Below, one piece after another: positions 23,028 through 50,409 of a DNA stretch of 64,000 bases. Source of the DNA: Williamsia sp. CHRR-6 (GTDB lineage: Bacteria; Actinomycetota; Actinomycetes; Mycobacteriales; Mycobacteriaceae); the NCBI RefSeq assembly GCF_018474015.1, contig NZ_JAHCSG010000003.1, forward strand, positions 186,001 to 250,000, given 5' to 3'. Positions within the stretch are counted from its first letter, which is position 1. Every line of letters begins with the position of its first letter. The position numbers and the translations under genes are program-made. The notes under the pieces were generated by a model, which was not told the DNA's origin, did no database searches, and saw only the letters and a list, made by a program, of their open reading frames with translations.

Positions 23028-23063
23028 CGGTTTTCTCCCAGAACGGTTGCGGGGCTGCGCTGC

Positions 23064-24011: not shown

Positions 24012-24081
24012 CGGAAGAACACCTGATCTCTTGGGTGCGAAACAGCGGACGGGACGGCGGCGAGACGAACGACCTGAGGGA

Positions 24082-30837: not shown

Positions 30838-30880
30838 AACACCCCAACAACAGACCCATTCACAACCTGAGGAGAACACA

Positions 30881-33204: not shown

Positions 33205-34545
33205 ATGCCGCTTCATCCCACTCACCAGGCACCCGTCGCACCCAGACTGGACCGGCGCAGTTTTCTGCGGGGCGGCGCGATGATCGGCGGCGCACTGATC
33301 GCCGGAAACGCCCTGTCGGGGTGTGCATCCACCTCAGCTCCGGGCGGGGCGAGGACGGTCACGTTGTGGTCGTGGCTGACCGGGATGAACAAGTACGTCG
33401 CAGCCTTCAACGCCTCGCAGACCGAGGTCCACGTGGAGCTGTCGGTGATCGCATCGGGTCTGTCGGGCGGATACGCCCAACAGACCAACGCCATCCGGGC
33501 CCACAACGCCCCCGACATCCTGCACGTGGAATATCAAGGGCTGCCTCAGATCTTGACCAGTGGCGGGCTGCGCGACATCACCGCCGAGGTGGCCGACCTG
33601 GAGTCGGGTTACAGCCCGGCCGCGTGGCGCGGGGTGCGGCCCGACGGTCGCACCTGGGCCATCCCGATGGACCTCGCACCCCAGGCGTTCTACTACCGCA
33701 AGGATCTCTTCGACAAACACGGCATCGAGGTACCCACCACCTGGGACCAGTTCGGTGTCGCCGCCCGCGCGGTGCGCACCGCCGCACCCGACGCTCGCAT
33801 CGCCTCGTTCCCGCTCAACGATGGCTCGTTCTTCGCCGGGATGTGCTGGGGCGCAGGTGATCCCTGGTGGCGCGTGGCCGACTCCCGCTGGCAGGTGAAC
33901 ATCGCCTCAGACGGGTCGATGCGCACCGCCCGCTTCTGGCAGCAGATGATCTCCGACGATCTGGTGCGCACCATCGCTACCAGCGGGCAGGAGTGGAGCG
34001 CGGCCATGCACGAGGGTCGGTTGTGGGGGCTGCTCGGGGCGGCGTGGAGTGTGGGCACGTTCAAAAAGACCGTCCCCGACGACAAAGGCCGATGGGCGGT
34101 GGCGCCGATGCCGGTGTTCGACCGCGCCACCCCCACCAACGGCGTGCAGGGAGGAACCGCCTTCGGGATTTCCCGCGAATCGCGCAATCACCAAGCCGCA
34201 CTGACGTTCCTGCGATGGCTGTCCACCAATCCGAAAGTGCCTGCGATCGGGGCCACCTTCACCTCCCCGTTCTCGGCCTACATCCCCAACCGGACCATCG
34301 CGCGCGCGGCCTACAAGGGCGGATTCTTCATCGGCGACCCGGTGTACGACGTCCTCGACACCGCCGCCGAGCGGGTGCCGGACTGGACGTGGGGACCCAA
34401 CGCACTGGCCGTCTTCTCCACCGTGGTGGACAAGATCGGCGCCACCGCAGGCGATCTGCCGGGCGCGGTGCAACAGATCCAGTCAGCCACCGTGGCAGAC
34501 ATGCGCAAGCGCGGTCTCGCCGTCGTCGAAGGGACCCGCTCATGA
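33205..34545 (+). CDS. Extracellular sugar-binding lipoprotein of the second ABC importer
   Basis: 446-residue family 1 binding protein. A Tat motif DRRSFLRGG precedes a hydrophobic segment and lipobox ALSGC. The mature protein begins with TVTLWSWLTGMNKYVAAF, the typical opening of CUT1 binding proteins, and contains AFYYRKDLFDKHGIEVPTTW. TGGAGAAG lies before the ATG. First gene of a plus-strand operon whose five genes overlap or nearly overlap. The sugar is unknown. Confidence 0.92.
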   Translation: MPLHPTHQAPVAPRLDRRSFLRGGAMIGGALIAGNALSGCASTSAPGGARTVTLWSWLTGMNKYVAAFNASQTEVHVELSVIASGLSGGYAQQTNAIRAHNAPDILHVEYQGLPQILTSGGLRDITAEVADLESGYSPAAWRGVRPDGRTWAIPMDLAPQAFYYRKDLFDKHGIEVPTTWDQFGVAARAVRTAAPDARIASFPLNDGSFFAGMCWGAGDPWWRVADSRWQVNIASDGSMRTARFWQQMISDDLVRTIATSGQEWSAAMHEGRLWGLLGAAWSVGTFKKTVPDDKGRWAVAPMPVFDRATPTNGVQGGTAFGISRESRNHQAALTFLRWLSTNPKVPAIGATFTSPFSAYIPNRTIARAAYKGGFFIGDPVYDVLDTAAERVPDWTWGPNALAVFSTVVDKIGATAGDLPGAVQQIQSATVADMRKRGLAVVEGTRS

Positions 34546-35489
34546 TCACCGTGTCACCGGCCCGGGACACCACGCCCACGGCGCGACCTCGACCTGCCCC
34601 GGACCGCACCGCGCGCACGCGCCGTCGGCGCACCGGCAGCCTCGCGGGACTGTTGTTGGCCGCACCCTTCATCCTGCTGTTGATCGGCACCGTCCTGGTT
34701 CCGGTGGGCTATGCGATCTACCTGAGCGCCTTCACCGATCGGCTCTCCGGATTGGGATTCGGTGGTCCTCGACAGGTCTTCGTCGCCCTTGGCAACTACG
34801 CGACCGTGCTCACCGACCACGACTTCCTGCGCTCGGTCGGCAACGTCTGCCTCTACGCACTGATCCACGTGCCGCTGATGATGGGATCAGCACTGCTGCT
34901 GGCGTTGCTGCTCGACTCGGCGGTCACCCGATTTCGACAGGTGTGGTCGTTGGCGATGTTCCTGCCGTACGCGGTGCCAGGCGTGATCACCGGACTCATC
35001 TGGGCCTACCTGTATTCGCCTGGTATCGGCCCGATCAACGCCATCTCGCCGGTCGACCCGCTCTCGGGTCACGGGATCCTGGGCTCGATCGTGAACATCT
35101 CCCAGTGGCAGTGGATGGGCTACAACATGATCATCTTCTACACCGCATTGCAGACGGTACCCAAGGAACTGTTGGAGGCCGCCCGCGTCGACGGAGCGGG
35201 TGAGATCAGGACGGCCCTGCAGGTGAAGGTCCCTCTCATCCGACCCACCGCATTCGTGGCCCTGGTCTTCACCATCATCGGATCCATGCAGCTGTTCACC
35301 GAACCGCTGATCCTGCGCACCTTCACCGGAGCCATCTCCTCCACCTGGACCCCCAGCCTGTATGTGTACGAATCCGCCTTTGTGGCAAACGATTACGGGA
35401 GAGCTGCCGCGGCCTCGGTCATCCTGGCGCTGGCGTCGGCGCTGCTCTCGGCGCTGGTGATGCAACTGTCGACACGAAGGAGTCGGTGA
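34542..35489 (+). CDS. ABC sugar permease, MalF-type
   Basis: 315-residue permease with six hydrophobic segments and the EAA loop VPKELLEAARVDGAG near residues 208-222. It starts in an ATGA overlap with the binding-protein gene. The N-terminus is rich in Arg/Thr/Pro and cytoplasmic. Partner of the next permease; no ATPase in this operon. Confidence 0.93.
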   Translation: MITVSPARDTTPTARPRPAPDRTARTRRRRTGSLAGLLLAAPFILLLIGTVLVPVGYAIYLSAFTDRLSGLGFGGPRQVFVALGNYATVLTDHDFLRSVGNVCLYALIHVPLMMGSALLLALLLDSAVTRFRQVWSLAMFLPYAVPGVITGLIWAYLYSPGIGPINAISPVDPLSGHGILGSIVNISQWQWMGYNMIIFYTALQTVPKELLEAARVDGAGEIRTALQVKVPLIRPTAFVALVFTIIGSMQLFTEPLILRTFTGAISSTWTPSLYVYESAFVANDYGRAAAASVILALASALLSALVMQLSTRRSR

Positions 35490-36385
35490 TGACCACCCTG
35501 CAGGATCGACCCACCGCGATCCCCGACACCCCACGGGGATCAGTCACCAGCTCACGCTGGACCTCGCGCACTGCGGTACACACCATCTTGATCATCGGTG
35601 CGCTCTACAGCGTGCTGCCGCTGGTCTGGTTGGCCACTGCGGCAACGAAATCGACCCAGGACTTCTCCACCACCTCGGCGTTCGAGTTCGGCGAATGGAA
35701 CCTCGGACACAACATCGGGGCCTTGTTCACCGAGGAGGACGGGATCTTCTGGGAGTGGATTCGCAACTCGCTGCTCTACGCCGGTCTCGGTGCCGCAGTG
35801 GGGTCGCTGATCTGCGCCGCGTGCGGCTACGCGCTGGCCAAGATCCCGTTTCCGGGGCGCTCGCTGCTGTTCGGTCTCACCCTGACCGGAGTGCTGGTCC
35901 CCACCACCGCTCTGGCCATGCCGCTGTACCTGCTGGCCTCGGAGCTACGGATGGTCAACACCTTCTGGGCCGTGTTCATCCCCCTGCTGACCAACCCGTT
36001 CGGCGTGTACCTGGCCCGGGTCTATGCCGAGGCCTCGGTTCCCGATGAGATCATCGAGGCCGCCCGCATCGACGGCTCCAGTGAACTGCGCACCTTCGTC
36101 CGAATCGCTATGCCCATGATGCGGCCCGGGATCGTGACGGTGTTCCTCTTCCAATTCGTGGCCATCTGGAACAACTTCTTCCTGCCGCTGGTGATGCTGA
36201 CCGACCAGCACCTGTTCCCGATGAGCCTGGGGCTGTTCCAGTGGAGCAACCGTACAGTCCAGTTCCCGCAATACAATTCGCTGGTGGTAACCGGGTCACT
36301 GCTCGCGGTCATCCCACTCATCGTGGCCTTCATCGTGTTGCAGCGGCAGTGGCGGCCCGGGTTGGCCGCCGGGGCGGTCAAGTGA
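35489..36385 (+). CDS. ABC sugar permease, MalG-type
   Basis: 298-residue permease with six hydrophobic segments and an EAA loop VPDEIIEAARIDGSSELRTF. The ATG at 35489 is preferred over GTG 35486 because AGGAG at 35478-35482 then has a 6-base gap. It overlaps the upstream stop by one base, and its own stop overlaps the next gene by 4 bases. The C-terminal segment QRQWRPGLAAGAVK is typical of the MalG side. Confidence 0.93.
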   Translation: MTTLQDRPTAIPDTPRGSVTSSRWTSRTAVHTILIIGALYSVLPLVWLATAATKSTQDFSTTSAFEFGEWNLGHNIGALFTEEDGIFWEWIRNSLLYAGLGAAVGSLICAACGYALAKIPFPGRSLLFGLTLTGVLVPTTALAMPLYLLASELRMVNTFWAVFIPLLTNPFGVYLARVYAEASVPDEIIEAARIDGSSELRTFVRIAMPMMRPGIVTVFLFQFVAIWNNFFLPLVMLTDQHLFPMSLGLFQWSNRTVQFPQYNSLVVTGSLLAVIPLIVAFIVLQRQWRPGLAAGAVK

Positions 36386-37392
36386 AGGCTCCGAACACGC
36401 TGCTGGTGATGGACGACGACACCTTCCGATTGCAGTTCGGGCCGGCGGAGCTGGCGCGGTTGCGGGCGGTCGCCACCGTGTCCGACCCGATCCGGTTGGG
36501 CGAGTTGAGATCACCGACTGCACGCGCACGTCTGGCCCACACCGAGGTGCTGCTCACCTCGTGGGGCTGTCCACCTCTGGACGCCGAGGTCCTCGGCTCG
36601 GCACCCCGGTTGCAGGCGGTGTTCCACGCGGCCGGTTCAGTTCGGGGGCACGTCTCCTCGGCCGTGTTCGACCGGGGCATCGTGGTGACCACCGCCGCCG
36701 ATGCCAACGCAGAGCCGGTGGCCCAGTACACCCTGGCCGCGGTGCTGTGGTCGTTCAAGAAGGCCCCGTTCCTCGCCGCCGACGCCCGAGTCCACCGCGC
36801 CGACTGGAGCTATCGAGAAGCTCGCGGCGAGCTGTCCGGGCGCGATCGGGTGGTCGTGGTGGTGGGGTTCTCCCGAGTGGGTCGACGGGTGACCGAGCTG
36901 CTGCGCATCACCGACAGCGCCGAGGTCGTGGTGGTTGATCCGATCACCGACCCCGACGAGATCCGGCGCGCCGGTGCGCAACCCGCCACGCTGGCGAACG
37001 CCCTACCGCGCGCCGACGTGCTGAGCCTGCACGCGCCGTCGCTGCCGGAGACCCGACACATGATCGGAGCCGCCGAGCTGGCCGCGCTCCCCCGGTTCGC
37101 CACCGTCATCAACACGGCGCGCGGGGCGTTGATCGACACCGCCGCCCTCGAACACGCCTGTGGCACCGGACGACTGCACGCAGTGCTCGATGTCACCGAC
37201 CCCGAACCGCTGCCTCCGGACAGTCCGCTCTACGACCTACCGAACGTGATGCTCACCCCGCATGTGGCGGGATCACTCGGTGGCGAGGCCCGGCGCATGA
37301 GCGCGGCCGCACTCGATGAACTCGAGCGGTTCGCCCGCGGGGATCCACCGCGAGCACCGGTCACCGCGCCGAGTCTGGCCGTACAGGCATGA
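36382..37392 (+). CDS. D-2-hydroxyacid dehydrogenase family protein
   Basis: 336-residue protein of the D-isomer-specific 2-hydroxyacid dehydrogenase family. The catalytic triad is present: Arg in INTARGALID, Glu in TDPEPLPPDSPL and His in LTPHVAGSLGG. The nucleotide motif is altered: GFSRVG replaces the common GxGRIG, so the second Gly is Ser. The GTG start overlaps the permease stop (GTGA), so it is co-translated with a sugar importer. It may reduce or oxidise a sugar-acid breakdown product. The exact substrate and cofactor are not clear. Confidence 0.85.
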   Translation: MKAPNTLLVMDDDTFRLQFGPAELARLRAVATVSDPIRLGELRSPTARARLAHTEVLLTSWGCPPLDAEVLGSAPRLQAVFHAAGSVRGHVSSAVFDRGIVVTTAADANAEPVAQYTLAAVLWSFKKAPFLAADARVHRADWSYREARGELSGRDRVVVVVGFSRVGRRVTELLRITDSAEVVVVDPITDPDEIRRAGAQPATLANALPRADVLSLHAPSLPETRHMIGAAELAALPRFATVINTARGALIDTAALEHACGTGRLHAVLDVTDPEPLPPDSPLYDLPNVMLTPHVAGSLGGEARRMSAAALDELERFARGDPPRAPVTAPSLAVQA

Positions 37393-39341
37393 CCACCTGG
37401 ACACGCGCCGACTGGATCGGCTGCGTGGACCGGCTGCTCGCCGCCGTCGAACCGTACCGGTCACCGGGTGGTGCCCGCATCGACCTTCCTGGACCGGCCA
37501 GTTGTTACGGCCCGGATTCCGATGGACTGGAGGGCTTCTCACGCACCTTCCTCGCCGCAGCACTGAGAACACGCGGCGAGCAGGGGGCCGATCCAGGCGG
37601 AGTGCTGGAGCGTTACGCCCGCGGCTTGGCCGCCGGCACCGATCCTGGTCATCCCGAGGCGTGGCCGCGACCCGATCAGCTCGATCAGGCGAAGGTGGAA
37701 GCGGCCTCCATCGCGTTGGGTCTGCAGTTGACGCGACCGTGGTTGTGGGACCGACTCGACGGCGGGGTCCGCGCCCGCACCATCGACTGGCTGAGCTCTG
37801 TTGTGGGACAGCCATATCCACCGATCAACTGGGTCTGGTTCCAGGTGGTGGTCGAGTCGTTCCTGCGTGAGGTGGGCGGAGAGTGGTCGCGCGCTGACAT
37901 CGACGCCGGCCTGGCCGTACACGCCACGTTGCGACGCCCCGACGGCTGGCGCACCGATCGCGACGGCGAACGCAGCTACGACCACTACGTCGGTTGGGCA
38001 TTGCACCTGTTCCCACAGCTGTGGGTGGAACTGTTCGACGTCACCGACGGCCCCGCGCCCCTGTGCCCGGCAACGCTGGTCGACACCTGGCGCGCAGACC
38101 TGCGCGACTACCTCACCGACGCCGTGCACCTGGTGGGCGCGGACGGATCGCCACTGCTGCAGGGACGTTCACTGATCTATCGGTTTGCCGCCGCAGCTCA
38201 GTTCTGGTTGGGCGGGTGGACGGGCACCCTGGATCCGGCGGTCGCACGTCGGGCAGCCGGTCTCATCGTGCGGCACTTCGACGATCGGATCACCCACCCG
38301 CTGACCCTGGGCCTGCATCATCAGTGGCCGGCCATGCGACAGGCGTATTCGGGTCCAGGGTCACCGTATTGGGCCGCACAGGGGTTTCTCGGGTTGGCTC
38401 TGGGTCCTGAGCACCCGATCTGGCAGACCAGCGAGTCGCTGGTGCCGTCCGAGCGCGGGGATCAGCTACGCGTCGCCACCGCGCCGGGCTGGCTCATCAG
38501 CATCCATGACGGCCTCACCTGCGTACACAACCACGGCACCGATCACGCTGCAGTCGGCTCGCGCGCGGGCGATGCCCCGCTGTACGCGCGACTGGGCTAC
38601 TCGACCGCCACCATCCCCCCGTTGGTGGGCGCCACCGTGGCTGCGCCCCTGGACAATTCGGTCACCGTCGTCGACACTCGCGGGTCATCCACCCACCGGA
38701 CCGGGTTCGCGACCCTGCGGTGCGAAGTCCTTGGACACACAGCGATCGGGGTGTCGCGGGCACGCCTGCACTGGGTGGACGCCACCGCTGACGACTCCCC
38801 CGACCACGGGTCGGGTCGAACGGGATCGGTGGTCGACGGACCCGTGGTGACGGTGATGTCGGTGGTGCGGCCCGGGGTGGAGATCCGGGTGGCCCGCGTG
38901 GAATCCACCGACCGGGGATGCACCGGTCGGATACGCGTCGGCGGCTGGCCGGTGTCGGGAGCGTCTGATGCGCTCGTCGTCAGCACCGATGCACTGAGCC
39001 GCGACCAGCGGGTGTCGGTGGGCGATCTGTGTTCGACGATCGTCGGACTGCACGGACTCGACGAGGGCGGGGTACACCACGAGACCGATGTGACCCCGCT
39101 GGGGGCCGCCACCGCCACGCCGTGGCTTGCGACCGGTTCGAACGCCGAGCCGGGGACAGTGGTGGCGGCGTTGATCGCGTTGCGACGCAGTCCGATCGAC
39201 GCAATGCCCACCGCGGCCGTGCACCCCGAGGGCATCGAGGTGCGCTGGACGGCCGACGACGTGGTGTCGGTGCGGTGGCCGACGGTGGATCAGCCCGATT
39301 CCAGCCAGCCGATCAACACGTCCGCATCGGTGGCCAGCTGA
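37389..39341 (+). CDS. DUF2264 domain protein
   Basis: 650-residue protein of the DUF2264 family, recognised from its N-terminal pattern (EGFSRTFLAAALR, PPINWVWFQVVVESFLREVG, YDHYVGWALHLFPQLW). The N-terminal half looks like an alpha/alpha barrel, and a beta-rich C-terminal region starts near residue 420. No signal peptide, so cytoplasmic. Such folds occur in sugar-cleaving enzymes, and the place directly behind a sugar importer suggests action on the imported glycoside; this is inference. The start overlaps the dehydrogenase by 4 bases. The 3' end overlaps the convergent isomerase gene by 52 bases. Confidence 0.8.
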   Translation: MTTWTRADWIGCVDRLLAAVEPYRSPGGARIDLPGPASCYGPDSDGLEGFSRTFLAAALRTRGEQGADPGGVLERYARGLAAGTDPGHPEAWPRPDQLDQAKVEAASIALGLQLTRPWLWDRLDGGVRARTIDWLSSVVGQPYPPINWVWFQVVVESFLREVGGEWSRADIDAGLAVHATLRRPDGWRTDRDGERSYDHYVGWALHLFPQLWVELFDVTDGPAPLCPATLVDTWRADLRDYLTDAVHLVGADGSPLLQGRSLIYRFAAAAQFWLGGWTGTLDPAVARRAAGLIVRHFDDRITHPLTLGLHHQWPAMRQAYSGPGSPYWAAQGFLGLALGPEHPIWQTSESLVPSERGDQLRVATAPGWLISIHDGLTCVHNHGTDHAAVGSRAGDAPLYARLGYSTATIPPLVGATVAAPLDNSVTVVDTRGSSTHRTGFATLRCEVLGHTAIGVSRARLHWVDATADDSPDHGSGRTGSVVDGPVVTVMSVVRPGVEIRVARVESTDRGCTGRIRVGGWPVSGASDALVVSTDALSRDQRVSVGDLCSTIVGLHGLDEGGVHHETDVTPLGAATATPWLATGSNAEPGTVVAALIALRRSPIDAMPTAAVHPEGIEVRWTADDVVSVRWPTVDQPDSSQPINTSASVAS

Positions 39342-40051
39342 TCGATGCGATCGTCGATCACGAACTCCAACAACACGTCCAGGGGGCGCCCGGCAGCGCG
39401 CGCGAGGGTGATCACCGCAGTCCACAGCTCGACGCGTCGGGCCAACGGATGCCGGACGTCGGCCGGCCACCAGGAGAAGGCGTGGATCGCCACCGTGTGT
39501 CCGAGCACCGCACGCAGCCCGTCGAGTGCCTGGGCGTCGGACACCGACCGGGGCGGCTGCCAGTAGGTGCCCAGGGTGGCGGGCCGGTCGATCTCGGCGA
39601 GCAGTTCGAGGGTGGAATCGACTGTGTCGGTGAGGGTGTCGCCGTGAAACTCCAGACCAATGGTCACTCCGTGTGCGGCCGCGCGGTCGGCCAGCACCCG
39701 GGCGTCGCGCACCACCTCAGCGCGCGTGTCCGCGTCGGTGTCGGCTGATCCGAGCGAGCCCGCCCACACCCGTATTCGCGGGGCCCCGAGCGCGACCGCG
39801 GTGTCGATCACCGGGGTGGGATCGCTACTGTGACCGAGCCGTAGATAGCTGCCGTAGGCGGCCACCGCGAGTCCAGCATCGAGCGTGCGTGCGGCCACCG
39901 ACCGGGCCAGGGGCAGGTCGTGCGGGGGGACGTGAACGTCACCGCCCCACTCGATGGCCGCCAAGCCGGCGGCCGCCGCCTGCGCGATCACCGCGTCCAC
40001 CGGCTGGGCGCGCAGCGTCACCGAGCACAATCCCGGTCTCAGATCAGACAC
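39290..40051 (-). CDS. Sugar phosphate isomerase/epimerase-like TIM barrel (first)
   Basis: 253-residue xylose-isomerase-like TIM barrel. Metal-site candidates are Glu in AIEWGGDVHVP, Glu-His in IGLEFHGDTLTD, His in VAIHAFSW and Glu near the end in VLLEFVIDD. The GTG at 40051 has no clear Shine-Dalgarno; TAGGGT on the minus strand (40063-40058) would give a leaderless mRNA. A 14-base palindrome of LacI type sits just upstream. The gene lies 54 bases after the LacI stop on the same strand. Together with the Gfo/Idh gene this suggests epimerisation or cleavage of an oxidised sugar. Confidence 0.8.
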   Translation of the reverse strand: MSDLRPGLCSVTLRAQPVDAVIAQAAAAGLAAIEWGGDVHVPPHDLPLARSVAARTLDAGLAVAAYGSYLRLGHSSDPTPVIDTAVALGAPRIRVWAGSLGSADTDADTRAEVVRDARVLADRAAAHGVTIGLEFHGDTLTDTVDSTLELLAEIDRPATLGTYWQPPRSVSDAQALDGLRAVLGHTVAIHAFSWWPADVRHPLARRVELWTAVITLARAAGRPLDVLLEFVIDDRIDQLATDADVLIGWLESG

Positions 40052-40065
40052 AGGGTCACCCTACT

Positions 40066-40079
40066 GGAATGCGCATTCC
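40066..40079. promoter_or_regulatory. LacI-type operator GGAATGCGCATTCC
   Basis: Perfect 14-base palindrome with central CG pair, the form bound by LacI-family repressors. It lies between the likely -10 and -35 of the isomerase gene. It shares the pattern GGAAWGCGCWTTCC with the palindrome at 41234-41253, so both are probably bound by the LacI protein encoded between them. Confidence 0.75.
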
Positions 40080-40105
40080 CAGACGCCGCGTTCGGGGTAT
40101 CACGG

Positions 40106-41143
40106 TCACAACCTCGTGCTTGCTCGCAGCTGCACCCGACCGCCCACCACGACCCGTCCCCGCCCCGACTCCGGCGTCGCGAGCGAATCGGTCGATGACG
40201 CCGATTCGAGCGCCAGCTCCAGGGCCCGGCGACCGAGATCGGCGAGTGGAAGGGCGACGGTGGTCAGCGCCGGGCGGATGTCGCGTAGCACCGGGATGTC
40301 GTCGAAGCCGGCCACCGCGATGTCCTCGGGCACCCGCAACCCTGCGTCGAGGACCGCCGACAGCGCACCGAGAGCGACGAGGTCGTTGACTGCGAACACG
40401 CAGCGCGGGCGGCGGGGGCGGTCCACAAGGGTGGCCATGGCCCGGTATCCACCGTCGCGGTCGAAATCGCATCCGACGATGTCGGCGGGCCGGGGCGCCA
40501 CGCCGAGTTCGGCGAGGGCCAACACGAAGCCCTCGGCGCGATCGCGCGCGGTGAGCAGATCCGATGGGCCGGCCAGCACACCCACCTCGCGATGACCCTG
40601 CGAGTACAGGGCTCGCGCCAACGCGCCCGCCCCGAATCGGTTGTCCACCACCACTGTCGGGACATCCAACACCTCTTGCCCGATGGCGGCCACAGCACCC
40701 CCATCGCGCCGGATGGCCGCGAGTTCGGTGCGCATCGCCGCGGTCATCTCAGCGTCGGCGGTCCGGGATCCGGCGATCACCACCGCCTGCAGCCGCTGAC
40801 GGCGCAGCATGGCGACCAGGTCGAGTTCGCGTCGCGGGTCACCCTCGGAGCTGGCGATGGTGACCAGCAGCTCGCGCGCGGTGGCCGCCGCCATCACACC
40901 GGCGGCGATGGTGGAGAAGTACGGATCGGTGATGTCGCGAACCACCAACCCGACGGTCGCGGTCCGACCGCGGGCCATCGCCTGGGCCTGGGCGTTGGGG
41001 GCGTAGTCCAACTCGGCTGCCGCGGCCAGCACCCGATCTCGCAGCTCGGGGGCCACCGTGCGTCCGGCGCTGCCGTTGAGCGCGCGCGAGGCGGTGGCCG
41101 CAGACACCCCGGCGCGGCGCGCCACCTCAGCCAAGGTCGTCAC
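40106..41143 (-). CDS. LacI-family transcriptional regulator
   Basis: 345-residue repressor. The helix-turn-helix reads TLAEVARRAGVSAATASRALNG, followed by the hinge LDYAPNAQAQAMA and the ligand domain starting VGLVVRDITDPYFS. The GTG at 41143 marks the normal LacI N-terminus; the frame continues far upstream only as antisense of the Gfo/Idh gene. Flanked by two matching palindromes, one before the isomerase gene and one in the divergent promoter toward the Gfo/Idh operon, so local control of both is likely. Confidence 0.95.
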   Translation of the reverse strand: MTTLAEVARRAGVSAATASRALNGSAGRTVAPELRDRVLAAAAELDYAPNAQAQAMARGRTATVGLVVRDITDPYFSTIAAGVMAAATARELLVTIASSEGDPRRELDLVAMLRRQRLQAVVIAGSRTADAEMTAAMRTELAAIRRDGGAVAAIGQEVLDVPTVVVDNRFGAGALARALYSQGHREVGVLAGPSDLLTARDRAEGFVLALAELGVAPRPADIVGCDFDRDGGYRAMATLVDRPRRPRCVFAVNDLVALGALSAVLDAGLRVPEDIAVAGFDDIPVLRDIRPALTTVALPLADLGRRALELALESASSTDSLATPESGRGRVVVGGRVQLRASTRL

Positions 41144-41233
41144 ATCGGTCCTGTCTGCCGTCCGACGGACATCGGTGATGTCCGAGCTGAGCCTACCCAG
41201 GTCTTGCGCGATCCCGGGGTCATCGGGCACCCT

Positions 41234-41253
41234 ATGGGAAAGCGCTTTCCCAT
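41234..41253. promoter_or_regulatory. 20-base perfect palindrome, LacI-type operator
   Basis: ATGGGAAAGCGCTTTCCCAT is perfectly palindromic over 20 bases and matches the LacI/CcpA style core GAAAGCGCTTTC. It lies in the divergent region, 41 bases before the Gfo/Idh start and 91 bases before the LacI start. Confidence 0.85.
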
Positions 41254-41293
41254 CGGATCGATCGCGATCTCGACCCGAGCCTCGAGGAGTCAC

Positions 41294-42457
41294 ATGTCCA
41301 CCGTGCGGATCATCATGAACGGCGTCACCGGCCGAATGGGCTATCGCCAGCACCTGGTGCGGTCGGTGCTGGCCATCCGCGATGCGGGCGGCCTGGTGAC
41401 CGCGGACGGACAACGCGTGCAGATCGAGCCGATCCTGGTGGGCCGCAACGCCACCAAGCTGGCCGAGATCGCCGCGCGGCACCACATCGATTCGTGGACA
41501 ACCGATCTGGAAGCAACACTGGCCGACCCGAGTGCCACCGTCTACTTCGACGCGCAGACCACCAATGTTCGCCGGGAGGCGATCCTGGCCGCACTGGCCG
41601 CCGGCAAGCACGTCTACACCGAGAAGCCGACCGCCGAGTCATATGCGGCTGCCCTCGAACTCGCCGCGGCCGCCGATCAGGCCGGGGTGATTCATGGCGT
41701 GGTGCACGACAAGCTGTACCTGCCCGGCCTGCGCAAGTTGAAGCGACTGGTCGACAGCGGATTCTTCGGCCGAATCCTGTCGGTACGTGGCGAATTCGGC
41801 TACTGGGTGTTCGAGGGCGACTGGCAGCCAGCCCAGCGGCCGAGCTGGAACTACCGGGCCGCCGACGGCGGCGGGATCGCCGTCGACATGTTCCCCCACT
41901 GGAACTACGTGTTGGAGAACATCATCGCGCCGGTGCAGGCAGTGACAGCGCGGTTGGCCACCCACATCCCGCATCGGGTTGACGAGGACGGCCACCCTTA
42001 TCAGGCGACGGCCGACGATGCCGCCTACGCGATCTTCGAACTCGACGGCGGGGTGATCGCCCAGATCAACTCGTCGTGGGCAGTCCGGGTACACCGCGAT
42101 GAACTGGTGGAGTTCCAGGTGGACGGCACCCACGGCAGCGCGGTGGCCGGCTTGTTCGCCTGTCAGGCTCAATCGCGGGTGTCCACCCCCAAGCCGGTGT
42201 GGAACCCCGACCTGCCCACCGACATCCGGTTCCGCGACCAATGGGCACCGGTGCCCGACAACGCCGAGTTCGGCAACGGGTTCGCCGAGCAGTGGCGCGA
42301 CTTTCTCGGCGACGTTCTGGCCGGACGACCGCATGCCTACGACTTCCACGCCGGGGCTCGCGGGCTGCGCCTGGCCGAGGCCGGGATCGAGTCATCGACC
42401 ACCGGTCGGCGCGTGGACGTACGCACCACGCCGGTCGCTGCGGCGGCCCGAGCATGA
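41294..42457 (+). CDS. Gfo/Idh/MocA-family oxidoreductase
   Basis: 387-residue NAD(P)-dependent sugar dehydrogenase family protein. The N-terminus VRIIMNGVTGRMGYRQHLVRS is an unusual Rossmann start with GVTGRMG. The catalytic EKP motif is present in VYTEKPTAES, and the likely catalytic His lies in DMFPHWNYVLE. GAGGAG stands before the ATG. First gene of the operon Gfo/Idh-DUF993-TIM barrel. Enzymes of this family often oxidise sugar hydroxyls, frequently at C3 or C1. Confidence 0.9.
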   Translation: MSTVRIIMNGVTGRMGYRQHLVRSVLAIRDAGGLVTADGQRVQIEPILVGRNATKLAEIAARHHIDSWTTDLEATLADPSATVYFDAQTTNVRREAILAALAAGKHVYTEKPTAESYAAALELAAAADQAGVIHGVVHDKLYLPGLRKLKRLVDSGFFGRILSVRGEFGYWVFEGDWQPAQRPSWNYRAADGGGIAVDMFPHWNYVLENIIAPVQAVTARLATHIPHRVDEDGHPYQATADDAAYAIFELDGGVIAQINSSWAVRVHRDELVEFQVDGTHGSAVAGLFACQAQSRVSTPKPVWNPDLPTDIRFRDQWAPVPDNAEFGNGFAEQWRDFLGDVLAGRPHAYDFHAGARGLRLAEAGIESSTTGRRVDVRTTPVAAAARA

Positions 42458-43626
42458 CCACCGCCGCGCCGCCCCGGCTGGTTCTGCCCGGTCCAGACGG
42501 CGATCTCGTGGAACATCAGATGACGACGCCGCGCGAGTTTCCCCGCCATCGGAACCCGCACACGGTTCGCACGGTGTTCGCCGCCGCCCATGTGGTACCC
42601 GATCCGTTGTCCGACACAGCTCCCGGCGCTCCCGCAGTGCTGGACTGGGACGCCACGCTCGCCTTCCGTCGACACCTGTTCTCCCACGGCATGGGCGTGG
42701 CCGAGGCCATGGACACCGCGCAACGTAACATGGGACTCGACTGGGCCTGCGCCGCCGAATTGATCTCGCAGACAGCGCAACTGGCACAGGAGCACGAGGC
42801 CCGGGTGGTCGCGGGGGCGGGAACCGACCACGCCCCCGAGGCCCGCACCCTGCGTGATGTGACCGCAGCCTACGTCGAGCAGGTGCAGACCGTGCAGGCC
42901 ACTGGCGCCGCCGTGGTGGTGATGGCGTCGCGCCAGCTGGCCGCAACTGCCACGTGCGCAACCGATTACGTTCAGGTCTACCGTGACGTGCTGGCCACGG
43001 CAGATCGCCCGGTGATCCTGCACTGGCTGGGTACGGTGTTCGATCCACAGCTGCACGGCTACTGGGGCTCTGATGATGTCGATGTCGCAACCCAGACCTT
43101 CCTGGGCCTGTGTCACGATCACGCCGACCGGATCGACGGGGTGAAGGTGTCGTTACTCGACGCCGACCACGAGATCCGTGTGCGCGCAGCTTTACCCGAT
43201 TCGGTGCGTCTGTACACCGGCGACGATTTCCACTATCCGGAATTGATCCGCGGCGACGGCACCCATGTCTCCCACGCGCTGCTGGGCGCATTCGCTGCGG
43301 TGGCCCCCGCCGCGTCGGCGGCGCTGGACGCCTTGGCCGCGGGCGACGTGGCCGGCTACGACCGTGAGATGGCGTCCACCCTGCCGCTGTCACGGCACAT
43401 CTTCAGCGCCCCCACCCCGTACTACAAGACGGGTATCGCGTTCATGGCGTGGCTGTGCGGACATCAACCACGCTTCTCCATGGTGGGTGGGATGGCCACG
43501 GCCCGATCGGTGTCGCACCTGGTGGATCTGTTCCGGCTGGCCGACGAGGCAGGTCTGTTGATCGATCCCGACCTTGCTGCGCACCGCATGTCGCTGTTCC
43601 TGGAGTTGAACGGGGTGGAGCGATGA
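42454..43626 (+). CDS. DUF993 TIM-barrel protein
   Basis: 390-residue protein of the DUF993 family, related to dihydrodipicolinate-synthase-like aldolases. Blocks seen: VFAAAHVVPDPL, AVVVMASRQLAA, VILHWLGTVFDP, DRIDGVKVSLLDADHEI (Lys in GVKVS is a Schiff-base candidate) and LYTGDDFHYPELI. The ATG overlaps the Gfo/Idh stop, and the stop overlaps the next gene. A lyase or aldolase step on an oxidised sugar is a reasonable guess; there is no direct evidence. Confidence 0.82.
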   Translation: MTTAAPPRLVLPGPDGDLVEHQMTTPREFPRHRNPHTVRTVFAAAHVVPDPLSDTAPGAPAVLDWDATLAFRRHLFSHGMGVAEAMDTAQRNMGLDWACAAELISQTAQLAQEHEARVVAGAGTDHAPEARTLRDVTAAYVEQVQTVQATGAAVVVMASRQLAATATCATDYVQVYRDVLATADRPVILHWLGTVFDPQLHGYWGSDDVDVATQTFLGLCHDHADRIDGVKVSLLDADHEIRVRAALPDSVRLYTGDDFHYPELIRGDGTHVSHALLGAFAAVAPAASAALDALAAGDVAGYDREMASTLPLSRHIFSAPTPYYKTGIAFMAWLCGHQPRFSMVGGMATARSVSHLVDLFRLADEAGLLIDPDLAAHRMSLFLELNGVER

Positions 43627-44528
43627 GCACGACGGTGCTCGATGTCCCCTCGGGGACCCCTGCGCGCGTGGCGACCCCGCGACCAGGCGATCGGCGATTG
43701 GGGCGACTGTCGTTGAACCAGCGCAGCATCGCATCGTGGTCGGTGGCGCAGACGGTGGCGGGCTGCGTGGCCGCCGGGGTCCCGTCGGTCGGACTGTGGC
43801 GTGAACCGGTGGCCGCGGCCGGGCTGGCGGTGTCTGCGCGGATGGTGGCTGACGCCGGGCTACGGGTGTCCTCGTTGTGTCGCGGCGGATTCCTCACCGC
43901 CGCAGAACCCGAGCGACAGCGGGATGCGTTGTCGGACAATCGACGCGCCATCGATGAGGCGGTCACCCTGGGCACCGACACCCTGGTGATGGTGGTCGGC
44001 GGGTTGCCGGCCGGGTCGCGAGATCTGGTCGGGGCGCGTCGGCGCGCGGAGGATGCGATCGCCGAGTTGGTCCCGTACGCGCGGGCACGCGGAGTGCGCC
44101 TGGCGCTGGAGCCGATGCATCCGCTGTACGCCGCCGATCGTGGAGTGTTCTCCACACTGGCCCAGTCCCTGGACGTGGCCGAGCGGTTCGCGGTCGACGA
44201 GGTCGGCGTGGTGGTCGACACCTTCCACCTGTGGTGGGATCCTGTGCTACCCGCGATGATCCGGCGCGCGGGTCCGCGGATCGCATCATTTCAGCTGGCC
44301 GACTGGATCACCCCGCTGCCCCCGGATGCGTTGCTGTCGCGTGGGGTCCCCGGCGACGGACACATCGATTTCGCCGCCATCACCGGCATGGTCGTCGATG
44401 CGGGCTATCGCGGCGATGTCGAGGTGGAGATCTTCAACGGGGATCTGTGGGCGGCGGCGGGATCGGACGCACTGGAAACCATCATCCGGCGCTACGTCGA
44501 ACTCGTCGCCCCGCATCTGCTCGCCTGA
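43623..44528 (+). CDS. Sugar phosphate isomerase/epimerase-like TIM barrel (second)
   Basis: 301-residue xylose-isomerase-like protein. It has RLSLNQRSIASW at the first strand, VSSLCRGGFL, RLALEPMHPLYA (metal Glu), VGVVVDTFHLWWDP (metal Asp and His), SFQLADW and a C-terminal DVEVEIFNGDLW (metal Glu). The four metal-ligand blocks are complete. It overlaps the DUF993 gene by 4 bases. Likely epimerase or isomerase in the same pathway; distinct from the first TIM barrel at 39290. Confidence 0.85.
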   Translation: MSTTVLDVPSGTPARVATPRPGDRRLGRLSLNQRSIASWSVAQTVAGCVAAGVPSVGLWREPVAAAGLAVSARMVADAGLRVSSLCRGGFLTAAEPERQRDALSDNRRAIDEAVTLGTDTLVMVVGGLPAGSRDLVGARRRAEDAIAELVPYARARGVRLALEPMHPLYAADRGVFSTLAQSLDVAERFAVDEVGVVVDTFHLWWDPVLPAMIRRAGPRIASFQLADWITPLPPDALLSRGVPGDGHIDFAAITGMVVDAGYRGDVEVEIFNGDLWAAAGSDALETIIRRYVELVAPHLLA

Positions 44529-44544: not shown

Positions 44545-45900
44545 TCACGCCCCGACCGCGAGATCGATCACCCGTAACGGAGAACGGCCGGCTTCTTGTC
44601 CAGGCTCCTGGAACATCACCGACAGCACGCCCGAACGCAGCCGGGACCTGTCGACGGTGCATTCGGTGAACGAGTCGACACCGGCGCCGTCGAACACGAT
44701 CGACCAGTCCAGCCAGTTCGCTGCGGCCGACGCCGCCGCGACACGTCCGTCCGGGAGCACCGCGTAGGCGGTGTCGTCCTCGGCGATCACCAGCTGGGTG
44801 CGCCCGAACCGTCCGGACTGCACACCCAGTTCGGTTCGTTGCCAGGTGTGTGCGACGCGCACGAGGTGCACCGGACGCGCGTGGTCACGGCGCTGGGTCA
44901 CGAAGTCGCTCACCACCGGACGTGTCTGCGGCGGCACGTAGCTGATCATGACATGGGGTCGACCGGCGGAGTCGACGGCTTGAGACTCCTGGTTGATCAG
45001 CGCGTGATCCGGGCCCAACGCATCGACGACATGACCTGGGGTGCCCCAACTCACCACAAGATCACCTCCGGTCCGCGCCGCGAGCTCACCACCGTCGGTG
45101 TACCAGGTGGACCCCAGATCATCGGAGTACACGTATCCGGTGTCGTGATTGGCCAGGCCACCTGGATCACTCAGAACCGTTCCGCCACGTGCTGATTCGC
45201 GCCAGGTGAAGGCGGCGTGTAGTCGCCCGTTTCGGTCGAGATCCAACCCGTGCAGGTAGGCGTTACGGGTGTGGTTGGTCCGCCCGTTGGGAGCCACGTA
45301 GCGACCGGTGGAACCGGTCCAGGCGCCTCGAGTAGTCCACTTCGACTGTGTCGGATCGTATTCGGCGAGCTCACACACGCCGCCGCCGGAGTGCCCGGTG
45401 CGGTAGGACAGCAACAGTCCACCGGCAGGCGTGCCCACGAACTGCGGATAACTGATGCCCCCGAGATCGACGCCACCGAGCGTGCGTTGCACCACCGCAA
45501 AGGATTCCCGACCCCACGGCGCAGCACCGTCGACGAGATGTGGATGCGACACCGTGTAGTAGACGGGCGTGTCATGGGTGTCCATCGCCACGTGCAGGCG
45601 TCCGTCACCGCGGGAGACCCCCAGGGAGATGGTGTTGTGTGAGTCCACCGCCGAGAGATCATGATCGAACGCAAAGGTCTGCCATGGGCCGACCGCGTAA
45701 CCCTCGACCGCACGCCTGGACAACCGAACCCCACGATCGCTGCCGTACCAGGCGGTGTATTGATGACCACCCGCGGTCACCAGCGAATCACGTTGGAAAG
45801 ATGCGACATTGGGGACACCGCTATAGGTCACCTCGAACAGCGCTGACTCGTCGAGCACGGTGATGCCCAATGTGGTCAACGTCGGACACGACCGCGACAC
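44545..45900 (-). CDS. BNR-repeat (BNR_4-like) family protein
   Basis: About 451 residues, beta-propeller-like. Features are YTAWYGSDRGVRLSRR, a SHNTISLGVSRGDGRLHVAMD block, SYPQFVGTPAGGLLLSYR, a RNAYLHGLDLDRNGRLHAAFTWRE-type blade (positions about 230-253) and YSDDLGSTWY (Asp-box-like). Families with this pattern include sialidase-like hydrolases and some polysaccharide lyases. No signal peptide is visible from any start, which is odd for such an enzyme. GTG 45900 is chosen for the AGGTG site before it; GTG 45858 or nearby TTG codons are possible. It lies 13 bases after the crotonase stop on the same strand. Confidence 0.7.
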   Translation of the reverse strand: MSRSCPTLTTLGITVLDESALFEVTYSGVPNVASFQRDSLVTAGGHQYTAWYGSDRGVRLSRRAVEGYAVGPWQTFAFDHDLSAVDSHNTISLGVSRGDGRLHVAMDTHDTPVYYTVSHPHLVDGAAPWGRESFAVVQRTLGGVDLGGISYPQFVGTPAGGLLLSYRTGHSGGGVCELAEYDPTQSKWTTRGAWTGSTGRYVAPNGRTNHTRNAYLHGLDLDRNGRLHAAFTWRESARGGTVLSDPGGLANHDTGYVYSDDLGSTWYTDGGELAARTGGDLVVSWGTPGHVVDALGPDHALINQESQAVDSAGRPHVMISYVPPQTRPVVSDFVTQRRDHARPVHLVRVAHTWQRTELGVQSGRFGRTQLVIAEDDTAYAVLPDGRVAAASAAANWLDWSIVFDGAGVDSFTECTVDRSRLRSGVLSVMFQEPGQEAGRSPLRVIDLAVGA

Positions 45901-45913
45901 CGGAGCACCTGAG

Positions 45914-46678
45914 CTACGAGCCGGCGATCGCGGCTTGACCGTCCACCCCACGGACCGCCGATCGCAGGGCGGCCGCGGTGGCGGCGTACCGAGACGCCTT
46001 GATCTCGCCCAGCGTGCGTCCCCGCGTGTTCTGGTGGGCCCGGGCATGATCCAGTGCGGCCGGTAGCACCTGATCCAGAGGCGTTGCTGCGTCGACGATT
46101 CCACGCGCGGCCGCCTCGGTGCCGCCGTAGCGTCGGCCGGTCATCAGCAGTTCGTGGCCCACGCGCACGGGCACCCGGTCGGCGACGAGCATCACGCTGC
46201 CAGGGGCATAGCTGGCTCCGATGGTGACGCCCGGCATGCAAAGGTAGCCGCGATCGGCTCGCATCACCGCATGGTCGTGGGCTATCGCGAACAGCGCACC
46301 CGCACCGAAGGCGTGTCCAGGCACCGCCGCCACCGTGGGCATCGGGAAGGTGAGGATGCGGGCGAGCAAGCGCTGCACCGATTCCACATAGGGATCCACC
46401 TCGTCGACATGCGACAGCACCCATGCGGTGTCCAGACCGGTGGAGTAGAACTTGCCTGCCGATGTGGTCACCAGTGCGGCCGGACCCTGCCCGGCCTCCA
46501 CCTCATCGAGCAAGGCGTTGATCTCGGCGACTTGATCGGGGCCGAAGACGTGTTCGTCGTCGGTCACCTCCACTGCGCCGAGATGCAGCACGAACACAGA
46601 GTCGTCGCGGGTGAGGTAGGCCACCACCGGCACACTACCGTTCGTCGGCGGCGATGTCCGGTTCACACGGTCAGTCAC
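45914..46678 (-). CDS. Enoyl-CoA hydratase/isomerase family protein
   Basis: 254-residue crotonase-fold protein. The oxyanion-hole regions are visible: AALVTTSAGKFYSTGLD and VPGHAFGAGALFAIAHDH. The KFYSxGLD pattern resembles delta3,delta2-enoyl-CoA isomerase-type members rather than classical hydratases. The GTG at 46678 overlaps the PucR gene end by 8 bases. It may serve fatty-acid or dicarboxylic-acid breakdown together with the nearby monooxygenase. Confidence 0.82.
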   Translation of the reverse strand: MTDRVNRTSPPTNGSVPVVAYLTRDDSVFVLHLGAVEVTDDEHVFGPDQVAEINALLDEVEAGQGPAALVTTSAGKFYSTGLDTAWVLSHVDEVDPYVESVQRLLARILTFPMPTVAAVPGHAFGAGALFAIAHDHAVMRADRGYLCMPGVTIGASYAPGSVMLVADRVPVRVGHELLMTGRRYGGTEAAARGIVDAATPLDQVLPAALDHARAHQNTRGRTLGEIKASRYAATAAALRSAVRGVDGQAAIAGS

Positions 46679-47964: not shown

Positions 47965-50409
47965 TCAGGCCGTCACCGATTCTTTCGTCGGTGTCGTTGT
48001 CGCCGCGGAGCGCAGATGGCCGTCGAGCAAGCCGATGATCCGCGCGGCGACCGCTGCGTTGAGGTGGTGGCCCATGTCCTCGATCACCTCGTGGCGGGCG
48101 CCGGGAATCGCCCGGGCGGTGGCCGCGCCGCCGCTGGCCGCGACCATTCGATCCTTGTCGGCGTTGATCACCAACGTAGGCGCGGTGATTCGACCCAGTT
48201 GCCTGGTGCGATCGCCCGACGCACCGATCGCCCCGATCTGGCGGGCGTCGCCGCGACCTCGAAGTTCACCGGCACCTCGATTCCACGCCCTTCTCGCCCA
48301 GGCGGTCTCGGTCTCCTCGACGATGGGGTAGGCGCTGCGCGACCCGATGTGCTTGAGCAACGACACCTGCGCCTTGGCGAACTCGGAGATGTTGCTTGGA
48401 ACCGGCGCCAACAGGCGCGGCAACGTCGACTTCGCGGGCTGCCCCACGTCCCGAGCGCCGGTGGTCGACGCGATGGAGGTCAGCGAGCTCACCAGATCCG
48501 GGTGCCGCACAGCCAGGGTCTGAGCGATCATGCCTCCCATAGATATCCCGATGACATGCGCGCGGTCGACACCGATTGCGCGCAGCAGGCCAGCTGCGTC
48601 GTCGGACATGTCCTCAAGGCTGTACGCACCGTCAGGAGCGGTGCCGCGCAACATGTGCAACGGGTTGGGCATCGGGCTGTCGTTCAGGTGCGTGGAGCGC
48701 CCGCTGTCCCGATTGTCGAACCGCACAACGTGATAGCCGCGGTCGACGAGGTCGCCGACAAAGCTCTCCGGCCACGACGTGAGGTCGAGCCCGAGGCCCG
48801 GCACCAGCAGCACCGGCTCGCCCGACGGATCGCCGTCGGTGCGATAGCACAGCGTGATCCCGCGACCGACGTCGGCAAACGAGTCAGCCGCATCGGTGTC
48901 AGAGCCGGACCGTGCAGGGCCGGTACCGAAGGTGAGGTCGGGGTCGGTCACGTCGCCACGCTTGTAGATGTCGGCGTCGCCGGGATAACTCATCGACATC
49001 ACCCACGGATATGCGTCGCCCTGCCGCGGCTGCTGGTCGAGTACTCGCTGCACGTAGCCCGCGCTGAAATCCATGAGCGGACGCGTCTTCATCCCCTCCG
49101 GTAGCTCGGGAACAACTGTGGTGTAACCCAAGTCGTCCATGTAGGACAGCAGACGCACGAAGTATTGCGACAGCAGACCCACTTTCAGGGTCCACGATCC
49201 GTGCGTGTAGCCGATCAGGAACGCCAGGTTGGGAATCCCCGAGAGCATGTTGCCTTTGAAGGCAACGGTCTCCGACAGCGTGATGGGCTTGTCGTCGACG
49301 CTGATCTGCATGCCGCCGAACAGTCGCACGTTGAGACCGGTTGCGGTGATGATGATGTCGGCGTCGAGGTGCTGGCCTGAAGACAGCTGGATGCCGGTCT
49401 CGTCGAAGGTCTCGATGGTGTCGGTGACCACCGAGGCGAGACCACTGGTGATGGCCTCAAAGTAGTCGCCACCGGGGCTGGCACACAGCCGCTGATCCCA
49501 TGGGTCATACGGCGGGTTGAAGTGGGTGTCCACCGGGTACTGGTCCGGCAGCGCGCGCCGGTTGACCCGCCGGATGTAGCGACGCATGGTCTTGGGAAAC
49601 TTCTGCCCGAGTTGAACATTGGCCGACTCGAACCACACCTGGAACGCTCGGATGGCGGCGTAAGCCTTGTCCCTGGGCAGCACCGCGCGCAGGGTGTCGG
49701 AGATACGGTCCCGCTTGGGGACGGGCATCACGTAGGTGGGGGTGCGTTGCAACTGGACCACGTGGGCGGCGCCCTGCAGGTTCGGGATGAGGGTGACCGC
49801 AGTGGCGCCGCTACCGATCACCACGATTCGCTTGCCTCGGTAGTCGAGGTCTTCGGGCCAGTGCTGTGGATGGATCACCTGGCCGCGGAACCGATCCCGG
49901 CCGGGGAAGTCGGGGGTGTAGCCCTGGTCGTAGTTGTAGTACCCGGTCGCGTTGAGCACGAACGTCGCCGTCATCTGCACGCGTCGGCCGGTGTCGACCT
50001 CTTCCACGTCGACGACCCACAGCGCATTCGCGCTGGACCAGTTGACCGCGACGACCTTGCGCTGATACCGGATGTGCGGCTCGATGCCGTACTTGTGTGA
50101 CACCCCGCGCATGTAGGTGAGGATCTGCTGGCCGTCGACGAGGACGGTGTCCTCGAGCCAGGGTTCGAACTCGTAGCCGAAGCAGTGGTGATCGGAATCC
50201 GACCGAATACCCGGATACTTGAACAGGTCCCAGGTTCCACCCGAGGCGGCACGCCCCTCGAGGATGACGAAGGACTTACCAGGAAGGTCCTTCTTGAGGT
50301 AGTAGCCGGCCCCGATGCCGCCGAATCCAGCACCGACCACAACCACATCGTGGTGCTCGACAGCGTGTGCGGCGGCGGGTGTCTCCGACGAGGTGGTGGT
50401 TGCAGACAT
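47965..50409 (-). CDS. Baeyer-Villiger-type flavin monooxygenase fused to an alpha/beta hydrolase
   Basis: 814-residue two-enzyme fusion. Residues 1 to about 500 are a class B flavin monooxygenase with FAD motif GAGFGG (26-31), the Baeyer-Villiger fingerprint FRGQVIHPQHWP (174-185) and NADPH motif GSGATA. Residues from about 525 are an alpha/beta hydrolase with LLVPGLGLD, DNRDSGRST and nucleophile elbow GISMGG (Ser near 622). A final VIEDMGHHLN carries the catalytic His. The pairing suggests ketone to ester to acid plus alcohol in one polypeptide. GAGGAG precedes the ATG. It is divergent from an SDR that could supply the ketone from an alcohol. Confidence 0.93.
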   Translation of the reverse strand: MSATTTSSETPAAAHAVEHHDVVVVGAGFGGIGAGYYLKKDLPGKSFVILEGRAASGGTWDLFKYPGIRSDSDHHCFGYEFEPWLEDTVLVDGQQILTYMRGVSHKYGIEPHIRYQRKVVAVNWSSANALWVVDVEEVDTGRRVQMTATFVLNATGYYNYDQGYTPDFPGRDRFRGQVIHPQHWPEDLDYRGKRIVVIGSGATAVTLIPNLQGAAHVVQLQRTPTYVMPVPKRDRISDTLRAVLPRDKAYAAIRAFQVWFESANVQLGQKFPKTMRRYIRRVNRRALPDQYPVDTHFNPPYDPWDQRLCASPGGDYFEAITSGLASVVTDTIETFDETGIQLSSGQHLDADIIITATGLNVRLFGGMQISVDDKPITLSETVAFKGNMLSGIPNLAFLIGYTHGSWTLKVGLLSQYFVRLLSYMDDLGYTTVVPELPEGMKTRPLMDFSAGYVQRVLDQQPRQGDAYPWVMSMSYPGDADIYKRGDVTDPDLTFGTGPARSGSDTDAADSFADVGRGITLCYRTDGDPSGEPVLLVPGLGLDLTSWPESFVGDLVDRGYHVVRFDNRDSGRSTHLNDSPMPNPLHMLRGTAPDGAYSLEDMSDDAAGLLRAIGVDRAHVIGISMGGMIAQTLAVRHPDLVSSLTSIASTTGARDVGQPAKSTLPRLLAPVPSNISEFAKAQVSLLKHIGSRSAYPIVEETETAWARRAWNRGAGELRGRGDARQIGAIGASGDRTRQLGRITAPTLVINADKDRMVAASGGAATARAIPGARHEVIEDMGHHLNAAVAARIIGLLDGHLRSAATTTPTKESVTA

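Follow-up and report, generated by a model that had tools for sequence, protein, structure and literature searches.

A conserved Gfo/Idh-DUF993-TIM-barrel gene trio in Williamsia sp. CHRR-6 and its candidate role in non-phosphorylating sugar breakdown

What brings a Gfo/Idh oxidoreductase, a protein of the orphan family DUF993 and two xylose-isomerase-like TIM barrels together around a single LacI-family repressor? The genes lie in a 64,000-nucleotide stretch of the 4.0-Mb genome of Williamsia sp. CHRR-6 (positions 186001-250000 of contig NZ_JAHCSG010000003.1), which we call the window and to which the coordinates below refer. The minus strand carries TIM1 (39290-40051; 253 amino acids (aa); PF01261 xylose-isomerase-like TIM barrel, 53 bits) and the LacI-family repressor (40106-41143; LacI helix-turn-helix (HTH) and sensor domains), whose start at 41143 is a chosen start inside a longer frame. 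The plus strand carries the Gfo/Idh oxidoreductase, here Gfo (41294-42457; Pfam profile match), DUF993 (42454-43626; PF06187, 574 bits) and TIM2 (43623-44528; PF01261, 126 bits; an IolI-like isomerase/epimerase), with 4-bp overlaps between the consecutive genes. Both TIM barrels exceed the curated PF01261 cut-off of 31.1 bits. An earlier interpretation, made from the letters alone (the sequence-only reading), had proposed that these genes form an oxidised-sugar pathway. All of the open reading frames (ORFs) that it reported are present at the same positions, and the observation was confirmed by an ORF listing and Pfam profiles.

We conclude with high confidence that Gfo, DUF993 and TIM2 are one standing unit. 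Scanning named genomes turned up at least 590 confirmed DUF993 relatives among at least 597 pattern matches; the best 80 were used, a selection biased towards resemblance to the 18 query sequences. To these were added 47 loci from whole genomes, giving 127 DUF993 loci. Thirteen of them come from the 24 matching genomes (of 296 sampled) of the window's phylum, a count that includes the Williamsia genome itself, one fragment and one borderline match. Another 33 come from the 35 matching genomes (of 398, G299 included) of the phylum of genome G299, with G299 (the same as L092) and G498 (split match) omitted, and one comes from the two matching genomes (of 299, G296 included) of the phylum of G296, the other being L099. 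Genes in the loci were called by a codon-usage script, not taken from annotation, and Pfam names were obtained for representative proteins alone; BLAST or small profiles placed the remaining members, so that the families may be broader than those of Pfam.

In the 80 named loci, DUF993 is adjoined by Gfo in 78, by TIM2 in 77 and by both in 77, and 77 preserve the order Gfo-DUF993-TIM2. Over all 127 loci, the three genes stand side by side in 107, where L082 (cut off by the end of its contig) and L150 (with an inserted gene) are counted as non-trio and L151 as trio despite a Gfo in pieces. Since the order is kept in so many loci, the arrangement is not due to chance. The hosts span four phyla: Actinomycetota, Pseudomonadota, Bacillota (Gracilibacillus) and Chloroflexota (Thermosporothrix). 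The 128 DUF993 proteins compared are all distinct, many of them close kin; in their tree most non-trio members cluster together, but the trio/non-trio label needs four changes. TIM1 was found in 6 of the 80 named and 1 of the 47 further loci (directly after TIM2 in L144). In L151 (G008:C1:371000-390500), the Gfo and DUF993 matches are fragmented across frames, which reflects a decaying copy or sequencing errors.

Are TIM1 and the trio controlled together? A perfect palindrome, TGGGAAAGCGCTTTCCCA, lies at 41235-41252 in the gap between LacI and Gfo, and a second, imperfect operator with two mismatches lies at 40064-40081, 12 bp before the start of TIM1. With at most two mismatches, the pattern TGGGAANGCGCNTTCCCA occurs in these two places only in the 4.0-Mb genome. 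The reversed control pattern has one place in the genome too, and among 100 shuffled versions of the window 7 gave two matches at up to three mismatches. Because the count alone proves little, the operator claim rests on position and on conservation in relatives. Of 78 loci, 36 have a 14-base core (at most one mismatch) in the 400 bp that precede Gfo. Core sites number 49 in the 35.9 kb before Gfo versus 22 in 1.51 Mb elsewhere, and five control palindromes gave 0, 0, 0, 0 and 1 site in the same 35.9-kb stretches. Further core sites precede TIM1 in five Arthrobacter-group loci (L040, L043, L046, L053, L080), an NMT1-type importer permease in five loci (L035, L038, L042, L047, L056), a sugar-binding protein in three (L044, L090, L093) and a mandelate-racemase-family gene in two (L090, L093); the genes behind the sites were named by Pfam for L038, L042, L044 and L090 and assigned by homology for the rest. 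A divergent LacI gene stands beside Gfo in 42 of the 80 named loci. From these predicted sites, it is probable that LacI controls TIM1 and the trio as one regulon in the window, and the grouping of the four enzyme genes under one LacI protein, as first suggested, is supported by the predicted operators before Gfo and TIM1 and by the core conserved in relatives.

What kind of enzyme is DUF993? A structure model and fold comparison give a (beta/alpha)8 fold of the dihydrodipicolinate synthase (DHDPS) type, and in a profile alignment Lys231 falls on the invariant Schiff-base lysine of DHDPS in strand 6; this lysine is present in 128 of 128 sequences. DUF993 shares the fold, the position of the Schiff-base lysine and a GDD motif with the DHDPS/N-acetylneuraminate lyase superfamily, but differs from it in its low identity (14-20% in fold tables), in giving no PF00701 match and in having about 36 extra N-terminal residues. 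From sequence and model, DUF993 is likely a class-I aldolase-type (Schiff-base) lyase, in line with the aldolase-like barrel proposed before. The nearest structure is 4dnh of Sinorhizobium meliloti (SMc04132; E 3e-110, 48% identity), and the product of SMc04130 (3ju2) is a close homologue of TIM2 (E 3e-66); both are named uncharacterised. In the parts of the openly licensed literature in which they appear, SMc04132 and SMc04133 stand only as table rows, as 'uncharacterised protein' and 'putative oxidoreductase', and no publication under the name DUF993 was found in that literature. The family is still an orphan, with the structure of a member solved since 2012.

The partner enzymes can be placed by family. 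The closest structure to Gfo is 3oqb (E 8e-140), named only as an oxidoreductase, and the residues E110-K111-P112, D198, H202 and R51 are conserved in 109 of 109 sequences. TIM2 matches 7vpf, 3ju2 and 3qc0, and IolI (1i60) at E 3e-20; among its remoter relatives are ketose 3-epimerases and the 3-keto-glucoside 4-epimerase 6wn6 (E 4e-9). Its putative metal ligands E163, D199, H202 and E269 are likewise found in 109 of 109 sequences. TIM2 stays below the equivalog cut-offs of hydroxypyruvate isomerase (34.5 versus 353 bits) and 5-keto-L-gluconate epimerase (45.6 versus 300 bits). The nearest protein to TIM1 by sequence is AsbF (3dx5, E 4e-11), and a fold search returned many tied PF01261 proteins with no closest function; families that the fold tables do not list still count as candidates. 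Residues E134, Q165, H190 and E229, conserved in seven sequences, are candidate metal ligands, with Q165 occupying what we take to be the usual place of an Asp; TIM1 is a candidate isomerase, epimerase or eliminase.

Where would such a route lead? A glycerate kinase of the PF02595 type occurs in 13 of the 107 trio loci and in none of the 20 non-trio loci, against an expectation below 1% per 20-kb locus if a genome holds one or two copies (kinship between the loci means that they do not count independently). The kinase gene comes immediately after TIM2 in L033, L037, L141 and L146 and immediately after LacI in L059, L091 and L100; in L038 and L140 it is the last gene of the NMT1-importer run. 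The seven named cases belong to Pseudonocardia, Micromonospora, Nocardia, Nocardioides, Marinobacterium, a Microbacteriaceae bacterium and Arthrobacter. A DUF4147/MOFRL protein, presumably the class-II type of glycerate kinase, lies near DUF993 in 5 of the 20 non-trio loci. As glycerate kinases of two families recur beside DUF993, the pathway may well end in D-glycerate. In L145, a homologue of the D-2-hydroxyacid dehydrogenase (HADH) of the neighbouring operon (36385-37392, plus strand; profile match) stands directly after TIM2. The L033 locus, from Pseudonocardia dioxanivorans CB1190, with its trio and directly following glycerate kinase, is on the plasmid record pPSED02.

We propose the following route. 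LacI would repress TIM1 and the Gfo-DUF993-TIM2 operon through the two shared predicted operators. Gfo would use NAD(P) to interconvert a hydroxyl and a ketone, as is usual in its family, and would presumably work in the direction of oxidation. TIM2, together with TIM1 where present, may then shift or epimerise the carbonyl or hydroxyl group with a divalent metal, as the conserved ligands suggest. Lys231 of DUF993 would form a Schiff base with the keto intermediate, and a retro-aldol reaction would cleave a C-C bond. The C3 product, at the level of hydroxypyruvate, tartronate semialdehyde or glyceraldehyde, would become D-glycerate and pass to a glycerate kinase, as the gene neighbourhoods suggest. 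The most likely role of the trio is that of a non-phosphorylating catabolic module in which a DHDPS-fold lyase of new specificity delivers a C3 compound towards glycerate. That the module is a breakdown route for a sugar, sugar acid or glycoside in which all these steps hold together has, in our estimate, a probability of a little under one half (about 0.48). The retro-aldol cleavage to a glycerate precursor, taken on its own, is tentative and falls slightly short of even odds. More doubtful is the wider proposal that DUF993 founds a new kind of DHDPS-fold Schiff-base aldolase, which does not use pyruvate-type keto acids and cleaves a sugar ring or chain after its oxidation by Gfo; hexose- or uronate-type compounds would then be broken up with no phosphorylation and yield D-glycerate. 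If true, the trio would represent an undescribed but widespread way of degrading sugars without phosphorylating them. The fixed operon, the recurring operator and the glycerate kinases turn the orphan DUF993 family into a testable pathway hypothesis, for which S. meliloti and Streptomyces are tractable hosts.

Several findings weigh against this proposal. The profile alignment of DUF993 with DHDPS is a moderate match (probability 61%), the GTTGE motif that binds the keto-acid carboxylate in DHDPS is replaced by D87-T88-A89-Q90-R91 (D87, T88, Q90 and R91 in 128 of 128 sequences, A89 in 121 of 128), and His190 takes the place of the catalytic Tyr. Without the GTTGE motif, DUF993 is not placed among the pyruvate-dependent members; with the motif and the Tyr both missing and the profile match moderate, a reaction other than retro-aldol cleavage, such as dehydration or isomerisation, is possible. 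The link to glycerate is also incomplete: 94 of the 107 trio loci have no PF02595-type gene in the stretch examined, and the glycerate kinase of the Williamsia genome (one frame, matched in two pieces) is on another contig. In L147 and L148, the glycerate kinase shares its gene run with epimerase-family, DHDPS, MR_MLE and aldehyde dehydrogenase genes and could belong to a separate sugar-acid pathway. DUF993 itself may serve more than one pathway, since coenzyme A (CoA)-transferase and enoyl-CoA-hydratase genes occur in 10 of the 20 non-trio loci, eight of which also have an aldehyde dehydrogenase (Pfam for L092 and L180). The operator core is absent within 400 bp before Gfo in 42 of 78 loci, including those of Streptomyces, Saccharopolyspora, Amycolatopsis and Bradyrhizobium with the exception of L071. 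Finally, at least three importer classes (SBP_bac_1, NMT1 and Peripla_BP_6) are represented beside the trio, a range that no single obvious substrate fits.

The direction of the redox step bears on a further explanation. DUF993 and TIM2 could act first on a keto compound, with Gfo serving as an NADPH reductase that yields glycerate or a polyol. Arg51, which follows the second strand of Gfo and is invariant in the 109 sequences, is taken by us as NADP-like; such a preference leaves the direction unfixed, however, and HADH, placed after TIM2 in L145, would be the more usual hydroxypyruvate reductase. We regard this reversed order as quite improbable.

The oxidised sugar could also be a 3-keto-glycoside. 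Here Gfo would oxidise C3 of a glycoside, a TIM barrel would remove the aglycone by beta-elimination, and the other enzymes would hydrate and reduce or cleave the product, much as in levoglucosan breakdown or the A. tumefaciens AtOGE route. In loci of Saccharopolyspora, Amycolatopsis and Nocardioides, TIM2 is followed by a small protein, whose lectin-like matches are all sub-threshold, and by a sorbosone-dehydrogenase/LamG protein, an arrangement that resembles, as we presume, 3-keto-glycoside hydrolase clusters; the 4-epimerase 6wn6 among the distant relatives of TIM2 points the same way. The small protein, for which a DUF1080 identity was tried in one clade, gave no DUF1080 profile match, however, and such a route leaves DUF993 and the glycerate kinase unexplained. 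Known systems share its enzyme families: according to the available passages, the levoglucosan pathway (LgdA, LgdB1, LgdB2/B3, LgdC; PMC10066097) combines Gfo/Idh and PF01261 proteins with LacI regulators and a nearby ATP-binding cassette (ABC) importer, and the O-glycoside eliminase set AtOGE/AtHYD/Gfo of A. tumefaciens (PMC10628242) combines a Gfo oxidoreductase with two TIM-barrel proteins. Unlike the levoglucosan pathway, the window regulon has one Gfo rather than an oxidase-plus-reductase pair, and it has a DHDPS-fold protein, a step that the passages of PMC10066097 do not describe. Gfo scores 67 bits against the 650-bit NCBIfam equivalog cut-off of levoglucosan dehydrogenase (LgdA), and the levoglucosan degrader P. 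nitroguajacolicus LG01, which carries the trio (L053), has one Gfo matched by the window protein in its 21-kb locus. An oxidised-sugar pathway stays plausible; levoglucosan dehydrogenase is rejected as the identity of Gfo, levoglucosan breakdown as the pathway is not supported, and the 3-keto-glycoside route as a whole is rather unlikely.

Inositol catabolism resembles the module in that a Gfo dehydrogenase (IolG) shares its operon with an IolI-like TIM barrel. It differs in that the Gfo of the window misses the inositol 2-dehydrogenase cut-off (52.5 versus 355 bits, NCBIfam equivalog) and in that the window regulon holds no further gene of the inositol pathway. No described pathway for this gene set was found in openly licensed literature, which agrees with the suspicion of the sequence-only reading that the pathway is undescribed. 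Other possibilities were considered: glucosylglycerate or another glycosyl-glycerate might be the substrate, which would explain the glycerate kinase, and deformylation of 3-keto-glucose to ribulose is chemically possible. A 395-aa PF01261 protein, sometimes with an FGGY kinase, lies near the trio in Arthrobacter-group loci (close kin), genes that might point to L-rhamnose.

Does the module extend into the operon to its left? The sequence-only reading had taken 32-44.5 kb as possibly one pathway. On the plus strand lie a carbohydrate ABC importer (33205-36385; SBP_bac_1 and two permeases by Pfam, with membership of the system possible), HADH and a DUF2264 protein (37389-39341; PF10022, 305 bits; formerly GH154), whose gene is convergent with TIM1 and overlaps it by 52 bp at its end. 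Upstream, on the minus strand, a DeoR-type HTH (PF08220) is fused to a LacI-type sensor (PF13377; 32007-33185); by position, it is probably a separate regulator of this operon. Because operator sites lie only before Gfo and TIM1 (whole-genome search, at most two mismatches), the importer-HADH-DUF2264 operon (33205-39341) is outside the LacI regulon; a single regulon with the trio is unlikely, and one regulon over 32-44.5 kb was rejected. The operon may still, as a weak suggestion for this genome, feed a uronic-acid-containing compound into the module.

A uronate version of the pathway would have a glucuronide imported and dehydrated by DUF2264, with a TIM barrel, Gfo and DUF993 replacing the isomerase, reductase and 2-keto-3-deoxygluconate aldolase, and pyruvate plus glyceraldehyde or glycerate as products. 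The trio stands with HADH, DUF2264 and a sugar importer in L163 and L167, although the importer is only generically similar to that of the window; these close kin from one Pseudomonadota lineage are the only 2 of 127 DUF993 loci with DUF2264. Genes beside the trio in L147 and L148 resemble, as we assume, those of a uronate pathway. DUF993 occurs in 3 of 5 DUF2264-bearing genera versus 15 among all 199 genera (hypergeometric p 0.003, uncorrected for kinship and genome size; the count takes in the window's own genus, picked for having both). A Streptomyces genome (L196) has a permease-HADH-DUF2264 run with 62, 44 and 42% identity on a different contig from DUF993, and HADH stands beside DUF2264 in 1 of 10 other DUF2264 loci. 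Members of DUF2264 are reported, in the parts of PMC12269599 available, as beta-D-glucuronate dehydratases that prime substrates for GH88 enzymes; the equation of GH154 with DUF2264 rests here on the distant PDB matches 8oi4, 9o4u and 9nwf. PF07470 (GH88/GH105) has no match in the Williamsia genome, so that the DUF2264-GH88 cycle is incomplete and another route would be needed. Against the uronate version stand the rarity of DUF2264 beside DUF993, its place outside the LacI regulon and the lack of the keto-acid motif in DUF993; we hold it unlikely. A functional link between the two operons is possible, though doubtful: the shared neighbourhoods in L163 and L167 speak for one pathway over 32-44.5 kb, while the separate regulator gene, the missing operator and the separate contigs in L196 speak against it.

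On the other side of the trio, a BNR_4 protein (44545-46104, minus strand; profile and PDB matches) is convergent with TIM2. It is related to an L-rhamnose-alpha-1,4-D-glucuronate lyase (PDB 7esk/7esl, E 3e-30), which would suit the uronate version, scores 101 of 700 bits on the BT3686 alpha-L-rhamnosidase model and occurs in none of the 127 DUF993 loci.

Other observations concern the relatives. A Gfo-DUF6807 fusion protein lies directly behind TIM2 in L090 (12181-14307; named by Pfam), with homologues in L044 and L093. Between the NMT1-type importer and Gfo, nine Bradyrhizobium and Microvirga loci (L068, L074, L089, L097, L101-L104 and L106) have, at about 7.2-8.8 kb of the locus, a protein of about 465 aa with a weak, sub-threshold enolase-superfamily match. 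A third DUF993 context, with CoA-transferase, enoyl-CoA hydratase and aldehyde dehydrogenase, is found in L092, L164, L168 and L171-L175; of these, L164 alone has no LacI gene.

Further left in the window, 19944-31963 is a galactoside/galactose region, in which a galactokinase is identified by Pfam and the ORF translations, judged by eye, suggest an alpha-galactosidase-like protein, a second importer, a GH42-like protein, a DeoR regulator and galT. Together with the uronide-type genes to its right, this region could be a plant-gum island. On the far right, an 814-aa ORF (47965-50409, minus strand) appears by eye to be a flavin monooxygenase fused to an alpha/beta hydrolase.

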